This document shows, piece after piece, positions 33,351 to 35,538 of a stretch of 64,000 bases of DNA. The number at the start of each line of letters is the position of its first letter. The stretch's first letter is position 1. The stretch spans positions 1,178,001-1,242,000 of the forward strand of contig NC_007509.1 of NCBI RefSeq assembly GCF_000012945.1, written 5' to 3'. This DNA is from Burkholderia lata (lineage in GTDB: Bacteria; Pseudomonadota; Gammaproteobacteria; Burkholderiales; Burkholderiaceae). The notes beneath the pieces are model-generated. The model made no database searches. It had not been told where the DNA came from and worked only from the letters and a program-made list of their open reading frames with translations. Position numbers and translations under genes: made by a program.

Positions 33351-34700
33351 TTACTGGCCGACGTCGCAGGCGTCCCACGCGATCCGGTCGAACAGCGCGC
33401 GCAGCTTCGCGCCGCGCGCCGCGTTCAGCGCGGCCGCATGCGCGACGCGCCCGGCGAGATGCGCGCGGAAGTCCGGATGCGCATCGCGATTCTGCGACGC
33501 CGGCCCGCTCCGGATGCAGTTGGTCAGGATGGCCTTCAGGAGATCGAACTCATCGCGCGCCAGATTCGGATGACGATTGACGACCACGCCGGCCAGTTGC
33601 TGCCGCATGCCGCGCCGCATCACGCGTGTCTTGCGCAGTTGCAGCGCAAAACCCTCGTCGAGCGCGATCGCGGCAACCCGGACCTGCAGCCGCTCGACGT
33701 CGCGTGCCAGCGCGCCGCCGCCGGAAAAGGCGAGATCGTCGGCATAGCGCGTGTAGGTGGCACCGAGCGAACGCGCGAGCGCGGCGAGCCGCATGTCGAA
33801 CCGGAACGCGCTCAGGTTCGCCAGCGCCGGCGACGTCGGCGCGCCTTGCGGCAGGTGCCGCTCGCGATAGCGCTGGCGAGCAATCCAGTCGAACCGGTCG
33901 CGCAGGTCCGGCGCGAGCAGCCGCGCGGACGGCACGCGATTGGTGCACAGCCCGGTGAGCGTGCGCGCGACTTCGACCGGGTACCCGAGCGTGACGAACA
34001 GCGCGTGCACGCGCGCGGCGCGTATCGATACGAAGAAATCCGCCAGATCGAAACGGACGACGACATCGCGATCCGCATGCGGCGCCGCGAACGACACGAT
34101 GCCGTGCCCCTTGCGAAAACCGTGCACCGCACCGTGCGGCGCGATGCGATCGAGCAGCCCGTGCAGGATGCGGCGCTGCGCTTCGCGCAGCCGGCCTTTC
34201 GGGATTTCGACGAGGCGGCTGCCGCCGCTGCGCTTGTCGTGCGCCACATAGGTGTAGTGATGCAACGGCGTGGCGCTGCTGCGTGCGTCGACGCGCCAGT
34301 GGTCGGACAGCCAGTCGAGTTCCGCCGCGCTCACGCCGAGCCAGGCGGCAAGATCGCCGGGCGTCGCCCATTGCGGCACGTCGCAGCCGGCGAGCGGCGC
34401 CGGCAACGGCTGCTGGACGAGTGGGCGTCGCACGACGCGGATCGCGGCGGGCCGATCGCTGCCGTACCAGGCGAGCACGAAAGCCGGCGCATCGGCGAGG
34501 TCCGCCGCAAGCGTCTCGATGTCGACGTCGGCCCAGCGCGCACCGAAGCGTGCGAGCGCGGCATCCGCGACTTCGTGCGTCCACGGTGGCGCGCCGCCGA
34601 GCACGGCCGCCATCCGGGCCAGGACGCCGGGGCGTTCAGGTTCGCCGGCCAGCATCGCTTCGGCAATCGTGCGGGTGGTGTCGAACAGGGAGCCGGACAT
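33351..34700 (-). CDS. Retron-type reverse transcriptase, related to myxobacterial Mx162 type
   Basis: A 449-residue reverse transcriptase starting at ATG 34700. Motifs in order: 'RFDLADFFVSI' (metal Asp218), 'LPQGAPTSPALANL' (283-296), 'YTRYADDLAFSG' (YADD, 319-322), 'LQLRKTRVMRRG' and 'RQQLAGVVVN'. As in Mx162/Sa163-type retrons, about 180 N-terminal residues precede the palm; 'HGAVHGF' and the segment before it resemble Mx162 as I recall it. Two retron signatures are altered: NAxxH reads FAAPH (204-208) and VTG reads LAG (369-371). A candidate msr-msd RNA lies just upstream. There is no group II intron maturase domain. Confidence 0.88.
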   Translation of the reverse strand: MSGSLFDTTRTIAEAMLAGEPERPGVLARMAAVLGGAPPWTHEVADAALARFGARWADVDIETLAADLADAPAFVLAWYGSDRPAAIRVVRRPLVQQPLPAPLAGCDVPQWATPGDLAAWLGVSAAELDWLSDHWRVDARSSATPLHHYTYVAHDKRSGGSRLVEIPKGRLREAQRRILHGLLDRIAPHGAVHGFRKGHGIVSFAAPHADRDVVVRFDLADFFVSIRAARVHALFVTLGYPVEVARTLTGLCTNRVPSARLLAPDLRDRFDWIARQRYRERHLPQGAPTSPALANLSAFRFDMRLAALARSLGATYTRYADDLAFSGGGALARDVERLQVRVAAIALDEGFALQLRKTRVMRRGMRQQLAGVVVNRHPNLARDEFDLLKAILTNCIRSGPASQNRDAHPDFRAHLAGRVAHAAALNAARGAKLRALFDRIAWDACDVGQ

Positions 34701-34713
34701 GGGAATCGATGGG

Positions 34714-34877
34714 CGGGACGATGAGCCAACGTGACTGGTGCTGCGAGGAGTCGCGTTGCGCAACGCGCAACCGTGCTCCTTGCGACGCATCGGGGTGTCG
34801 ATCTGATCCACGGGGTAGCCCCGTAGTCCTGGAACATCGGCTGCCTGTTCCGGGCGTGTGCTTGACCCACCGGCCCG
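34714..34877 (-). ncRNA. Candidate retron msr-msd RNA
   Basis: Read on the minus strand. The 5' end CGGGCCGGTGGGTCAA (a1, 34877-34862) pairs over 16 positions (12 Watson-Crick, 3 G-U, 1 mismatch) with TTGGCTCATCGTCCCG at the 3' end (a2, 34729-34714). The last base of a1 and the next two read AGC, the usual context of the branching guanosine. Two small hairpins follow: GGAACA/TGTTCC (34851-34831) and ACGGGG-CTA-CCCCGT (34824-34810). A longer imperfect stem (about 34790-34740) is capped by the palindrome CGCGTTGCGCAACGCG (34767-34752). The RT begins 14 bases after a2. This is the order a1, msr, msd, a2, RT. Inferred by eye; not folded or searched. Confidence 0.55.
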
Positions 34878-34965
34878 CGATGCGACTTTAATGGCCGCGA
34901 ACGCGGCGTGTCAAACCAGGTGGCGATCCGGCGCCGCCGCGGCAGGCCGGATCGCGACGCGCGCC

Positions 34966-35538
34966 CTACGCGTGCCGGGAGAACAGTTCGCGGTACGCGA
35001 TCGGCGCAACGCCGACGCCGGCCATGTTGTTCAGCATCGTGGCCCAGGTCGCGTTGTCGACGCTGACCGGAAACGACCGCACGCGGTTGGCGAGCAGCCA
35101 GAAGGTGCGCGTCATGCCGTTGCTCATCGCGACTTCGTACCCGCTTCCCTCGAGCCAGTAGCCGACCGGCGGCAGTGCCACCGGTTCGAGGCGGCCGGCC
35201 CGGAACGCGGCGGCGGCCGACGCGTACTTGCCGTCGAGCGGCATGACGCGGCGCGGCACGCAGTCCTGCGAGTTCAGTTGCGGAAACGTCGGGCTCGTGC
35301 CGAGCCAGAGGCCGTAGAAGGTCTGCGCGTCGAGATGGACGACGTAGCGCTCCGTCTCGGCGGGCGTCGCCGCCATGTAGCAGTCGGCCTGGCCCGGCAC
35401 GGCAACGCGCCACATCGCGCGCTTCGCGCTCAGGTCGACCAGCTCGCTCGCCTGCGGCCGCGGCTGGATGGGAGACGGACGTCCCGCTTCGCGCAGGTCG
35501 CGCGCGCGATCGAGTCCGATACGAAGACGTGTCAGCAT
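34966..35538 (-). CDS. Unknown 190-residue protein upstream of the retron-like locus
   Basis: The start at 35538 follows a purine-rich AGAGAGGG site. The protein is soluble, without signal peptide or membrane span. It contains 'WRVAVPGQADCYMAATPAET', 'YVVHLDAQTFYGLWLGTSPT', 'GYWLEGSGYEVAMSNGMTRT' and 'YRELFSRHA'. It may belong to the family loosely named plasmid fertility-inhibition factors, but I hold that weakly. It ends 88 bases before the candidate msr-msd RNA on the same strand, so it is a candidate partner of the reverse transcriptase, or an unrelated accessory gene. Confidence 0.7.
   Translation of the reverse strand: MLTRLRIGLDRARDLREAGRPSPIQPRPQASELVDLSAKRAMWRVAVPGQADCYMAATPAETERYVVHLDAQTFYGLWLGTSPTFPQLNSQDCVPRRVMPLDGKYASAAAAFRAGRLEPVALPPVGYWLEGSGYEVAMSNGMTRTFWLLANRVRSFPVSVDNATWATMLNNMAGVGVAPIAYRELFSRHA

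Follow-up and report, generated by a model that had tools for sequence, protein, structure and literature searches.

The stretch of DNA analysed here (64,000 nucleotides of Burkholderia lata, contig NC_007509.1, positions 1,178,001 to 1,242,000; hereafter the window) is part of an 8.68-Mb, three-contig genome, on the contig of 1.395 Mb, and carries on its minus strand a 175-nt structured region (34882-34708) followed by a reverse transcriptase (RT) gene (34700-33351). By sequence evidence the locus is a genuine retron, and we consider it very likely to be a working stand-alone retron, composed of the RT and a non-coding RNA (ncRNA), of a lineage distinct from Mx162/type XIII. An earlier note made from the window's letters alone had proposed a retron with an msr-msd RNA, and this proposal was borne out by conservation, covariation, covariance-model matches beyond the training sequences, the predicted fold and the tree.

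The msr-msd RNA and its conservation

34708..34882, minus strand: ncRNA (msr-msd) as modelled by covariance model R1; 199 bits, E 5e-40, by construction, its own sequence being in the model; covariation
34862..34878, minus strand: a1 arm; pairs with a2 at 16/17 positions, 98.7% of cells paired, double changes in 4/16 pairs
34860..34862, minus strand: AGC; TCAAGC in 43/43 upstream regions
34831..34851, minus strand: msr hairpin 1 (GGAACA...TGTTCC); single-sequence fold; four consensus pairs, 96.4% of cells paired
34808..34826, minus strand: msr hairpin 2, 8-bp stem and 3-nt loop (CTACGGGG-CTA-CCCCGTGG); 100% of cells paired in 43 rows, similar hairpin at sister loci
34743..34783, minus strand: msd hairpin of two stacked stems; columns 108/139, 109/138 and 110/137 with 17, 5 and 15 double changes
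34713..34729, minus strand: a2 arm, with 34730 predicted as the first base to be copied; consensus structure and covariation

The two arms (34878-34862 with 34729-34713, 16/17 paired) lie within one base of where the earlier note had placed them, and the AGC at the a1 end (34862-34860), the two short hairpins and the long stem (34783-34743) that it described were seen as well. From the example of known retrons, G34861 is predicted to be the 2'-5' branch point. Twelve bases separate the end of a2 (34713) from the ATG of the RT (34700).

The evidence for the RNA from the window sequence alone is not convincing: its fold gave a z of -2.52 with 2/200 shuffles equally good (weak to modest), and the a1/a2 duplex reached -27.8 against a shuffle mean of -24.7, with 107/500 shuffles equally good (weak). 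The RNA was accepted as real because the comparative tests, namely covariation and model matches outside the alignment, are strong where the single-sequence tests are weak. From 66 loci, 59 gave an RT start (seven with no RT match within the first 10 residues were dropped), and removal of 16 identical upstream regions left 43 distinct Burkholderiaceae sequences for alignment, all of which (43/43) retain the AGC. In the RNAalifold consensus of these 43 rows a1/a2 contributes 16 pairs, next to two msr hairpins and an msd stem in two parts, and 98.6% of 1758 cells pair in this structure. Two-sided changes were found in 13/41 pairs, where shuffling gave a mean of 4.2 and the slid controls 2-4, and none of the five measures of the covariation test was reached by any shuffle (0/500); the structure came from the same alignment, which is an advantage over the slid versions, and the shuffles ignore relatedness. 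Compensatory changes, which the earlier note had named as the sign to look for among homologues in a1/a2 and the stems, occur in both a1/a2 and the msd stem. L056, a Burkholderiaceae locus outside R1, scored 158.5 bits. At L049:1317-1490 the halves of the msd stem are mismatched, with GGAGC belonging to one type and AGCTC to the other, which has the look of a recombinant.

The model built from the 43 sequences (R1) was run on 28 loci outside it, with E-values that are rough. Under default filters, nine loci of the sister lineage were matched in full length, immediately 5' of the RT and on its strand (L071, 5e-14; L070, 2e-11; L068, 2e-11; L069, 1e-8; Dietzia L084, 6e-4; L073, 0.0016; L079, 0.0019; L074, 0.0022; Tsukamurella L082, 0.06), and the remaining 19, consisting of eight Mx162-side loci (L072, L075-L078, L083, L122, L123), nine further RTs, L120 and L121, gave no match up to E 1. 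With filters off, the near-identical pair L120 (26.7 bits) and L121 (26.8 bits) was likewise matched in full length, again immediately 5' of the RT. A full-length RNA match is thereby found at 11/11 sister-lineage loci outside the family, at very unequal strength (nine by default, two with filters off only), and the Tsukamurella match is weak (17.5 bits), its score being indistinguishable from those of short Mx162-side matches. At the nine default-match loci the a1/a2 sequences differ but still pair, with z of -3.4 to -4.8 against single-base shuffles in 8/9 and -1.9 at L069, in segments taken from the model matches, which favours pairing. By eye, the priming triplet at some sister loci reads AGA, AGG or AGT, not AGC.

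None of the eight Mx162-side loci gave a full-length R1 match, filters on or off. With filters off, 7/8 (not L075) gave short matches of 51-82 bases at 11.4-18.8 bits. Four of these loci have them 5' of the RT, namely L076 and L077, where they are on the opposite strand, L072, where both strands match, and L122; these may be hairpins of the loci's own RNAs. The short palindromic matches L076:1159-1240, L077:1191-1272 and L072:3062-3143 are perhaps msd hairpins.

The reverse transcriptase and its lineage

33351..34700, minus strand: retron-lineage RT, 449 aa; RVT_1 Pfam match 2e-16
34404..34700, minus strand: residues 1-99 of the RT, its N-terminal part, with five helices followed by a linker; mean predicted local distance difference test (pLDDT) 89.1 when residues 1-110 are folded by themselves

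The RT of 449 residues described in the earlier note was found with all its motifs, that is, the catalytic YADD (residues 319-322), FAAPH replacing NAxxH in region X (204-208) and LAG replacing VTG in region Y (369-371). Among 34 Burkholderiaceae RT rows (the window RT and 33 of the 120 listed homologues), F/Y-A-x-x-H and LAG each occur in 34/34 and literal NAxxH and VTG are absent, which upholds the suggestion of a divergent subtype. Six sister-lineage rows vary at both motifs, one retaining the N and one VTG, and the extended RTs of the Mx162 side carry both NAxxH and VTG literally in 8/8. Neither motif is invariant among validated retrons; as given in excerpts of PMC6868368, 2/16 are without the N, namely Ec48 and Mx65, and 2/16 deviate from the VTG of region Y. 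The predicted RT structure (mean pLDDT 91.8) has solved retron RTs as its best matches, and the 14 highest structural entries are all retron RTs. The N-terminal part gave no Pfam match at E<=5 and no PDB match at E<=0.001.

Tree 1 (45 rows) grouped the window RT with those of Burkholderiaceae, other Burkholderiales and two Actinomycetota (100/99), and gathered Mx162, five other myxobacterial RTs and the C-terminally extended RTs into a separate clade (100/100). The same split was obtained in tree 2 (35 rows), where L071, L120 and L121 joined the window side (97/97) and L122 and L123 the Mx162 side (99/96); in both trees the outgroup does not form one side of a branch, and the deeper order is not settled by them. 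The best PADLOC-DB profiles for the window RT are RT_other (PDLC02949; 480 bits) and RT_outgroup (PDLC03740; 456), with RT_XIII at 304, and the Mx162 cluster P0241 scored 512 bits with RT_XIII and 302 with RT_other. RT_other and RT_outgroup are also best for Tsukamurella L082, Dietzia L084, L068, L074 and L120. On these sequence comparisons the window retron is a lineage distinct from Mx162/type XIII, without an assigned type. The name "Mx162-type" used in the earlier note is not supported, given the separate clade (100/100; 99/96) and a best family of RT_other, not RT_XIII; in its comparison of the extension with that of Mx162, the N-terminal extension itself (~99 residues) stands and the placement does not, the RT lying outside the Mx162 clade.

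Long C-terminal extensions ending in hydrophobic stretches are carried by L072, L076, L078 and L083, Mx162-side RTs of Burkholderiales and Methylobacterium. L064 (G118:C27) is a second, distant RT (~31% identity) in a genome that also carries the main retron.

Inheritance, neighbouring genes and alternative readings

Within Burkholderia the locus holds a syntenic position, evolves under purifying selection and is inherited vertically. The retron RNA was found in 43/65 Burkholderia genomes, as a single copy in each, and among the 41 genomes common to both scans 28 hold RT and RNA, 11 neither and two a partial RT without the RNA. Across 24 Burkholderia loci, the window included, an H-NS gene lies nearby in 23, an MFS gene in 22 and a PFIN gene in 15. 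The median ratio of non-synonymous to synonymous substitution rates (dN/dS) is 0.217 for the RT (23 comparisons), 0.142 for MFS (20) and 0.065 for H-NS (22), and RT and MFS distances are correlated (r 0.89, 20 loci, p 0.001). All 23 named relatives in species genomes are Burkholderia (23/23), most of them species that we take to belong to the cepacia complex. Across the Burkholderia cepacia group the lineage keeps to one site; in other Burkholderiales families and in Actinomycetota its surroundings are unrelated. In one B. pyrrocinia plasmid record other genes intervene between the RT and H-NS. At L062/L112 (G293:C3) all that is left of the RT is a C-terminal remnant (~residues 348-445), H-NS and MFS lie nearby and there is no RNA match; this is probably the same locus in decayed form.

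Upstream of the RNA, the following elements were distinguished:
34909..34914, minus strand: -35 element TTGACA of the predicted retron promoter; TTGACA in 42/43 aligned upstream regions, 17 bases from the -10 columns in 43/43
34886..34891, minus strand: -10 element TTAAAG; TTAAAGT in 22/43 upstream regions, variants in others
34966-35538, minus strand: PFIN (plasmid fertility-inhibition) family gene, upstream of the retron; Pfam PFIN 1e-16

The transcription start predicted from the -10 element would coincide with the 5' end of a1.

A conventional tripartite defence retron could be supposed, with the upstream PFIN gene or another neighbour as its effector. PFIN does sit on the same strand just upstream in 15/24 Burkholderia loci; however, it was not found in the other nine (at one of which, L019, the contig ends at the RT), is not common to other genera, has no PADLOC match and is parted from the ncRNA by the predicted promoter. 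Among the 25 largest neighbour clusters none is kept with the RT across genera, only the RT and its antisense frames spanning the set; transporter, LysR and SDR (short-chain dehydrogenase/reductase) homologues turn up repeatedly, at scattered positions, and four loci of one other genus have a frame 2-4 kb upstream in common. Called genes adjoining the RT at 11 loci show no repeat, under an approximate choice by a rule on third-position GC (GC3). With PFIN in just 15/24 Burkholderia loci and no cross-genus neighbour, the adjacent or fused effector that defines a tripartite retron was not found, and we regard this arrangement as very improbable. A similarly small probability is given to a decaying selfish element of no present function, which would account for the interrupted or truncated RTs of several relatives and for an RT dN/dS above those of MFS and H-NS, but is opposed by the purifying selection, by the intact RNA and catalytic site of most Burkholderia copies and by the single RNA copy per genome at a stable position.

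That the locus might be a Mx162-type (type XIII) retron after all is suggested by the N-terminal extensions of both RTs, by the CAGC priming site of Mx162 (in the excerpted text of PMC6868368) and by the short, weak model matches upstream of some Mx162-side RTs; against these stand the separate RT clades, the different best PADLOC families and the want of a full-length RNA match at the eight Mx162-side loci, which render it highly improbable. Very little probability likewise falls to the conserved RNA being a cis-regulatory leader of a non-retron RT and not a template. It does sit in the RT leader, and the Rfam radC RNA (RF01754) scores 19.6 bits over it, but this is far under the gathering cut-off of 40, so that the RNA is not counted as radC, and Rfam 15 holds no match above threshold on the retron RNA; moreover, the RNA has a retron layout and the RT a retron family and fold.

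Proposed mechanism and relation to known retrons

For the stand-alone retron preferred here, we envisage one transcript that would begin at a1, with the ncRNA first and the RT message after it. Pairing of a1 with a2 would be followed by recognition of the 8-bp msr hairpin by the RT, which would prime on the 2'-OH of G34861 and copy from 34730 through the msd hairpin, giving a multicopy single-stranded DNA (msDNA) of perhaps 55-75 nt; the priming and synthesis steps are taken over from known retrons as described in excerpts of PMC6868368. Some process of the host, possibly phage infection, could then be sensed or guarded by the RT-msDNA complex, which might work via a partner whose gene lies elsewhere or via the helical domain at the RT's own N-terminus. 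A role in defence is at best evenly balanced. More tentatively, and with less than an even chance, we suggest that this inherited RT and RNA lineage has no dedicated effector beside it and acts by its msDNA complex, via a partner encoded by the host or the RT's N-terminal helical domain, its role being perhaps one of housekeeping and not of abortive infection.

With Retron Mxa1 (Mx162)/type XIII the window retron shares an N-terminal extension, an AGC priming site and vertical inheritance in its host group (the Mx162 side according to excerpts of PMC6868368), and differs from it in its separate RT clade, the lack of a full-length RNA match and the literal NAxxH and VTG of the Mx162 side. The structural match to Retron Eco1 (Ec86), which was solved together with its effector (7v9x, by its title), begins at model residue 92, indicating an N-terminal domain without counterpart in Ec86. 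Retron Mxa2 (Mx65) is similar by description alone, having an extended N-terminus and no N in NAxxH in the portions of PMC6868368 at hand. In the PADLOC output RT_other and RT_outgroup come with neither a type nor an RNA or effector; the present analysis worked out the RNA and how it is conserved across phyla.

Retrons without a clear neighbouring effector are already in print, going by parts of PMC8867640 and, for Retron-Bth1, of PMC12548924, and the trait is not new in itself because such retrons had been noted (PMC8867640, in part). Among the literature matches listed no paper dealt with the locus or its RNA; the main retron census papers lie outside that scope and an earlier description in them is possible. 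The locus is not mentioned in the excerpts of the expression papers PMC4603805, PMC10175445 and PMC5688073, and strain J2315 may or may not carry the retron; PMC3091744, in its excerpt, concerns a different, prophage-borne RT of a Burkholderia phage.

The prevailing view of retrons is that they are phage-defence systems that carry an effector. A lineage that is inherited vertically, with a strongly constrained RNA and no neighbour retained, makes the role of effector-less retrons for their host directly testable, and the analysis supplies a covariance model of an RNA for which Rfam has no match. At ~175 nt, the compact ncRNA is also a candidate to try for RT-DNA production. Elsewhere in the window's own genome, a second RVT_1 match of 35 bits (L125, G000:C3:3113478-3113921) lies within an open frame of 1324 codons.
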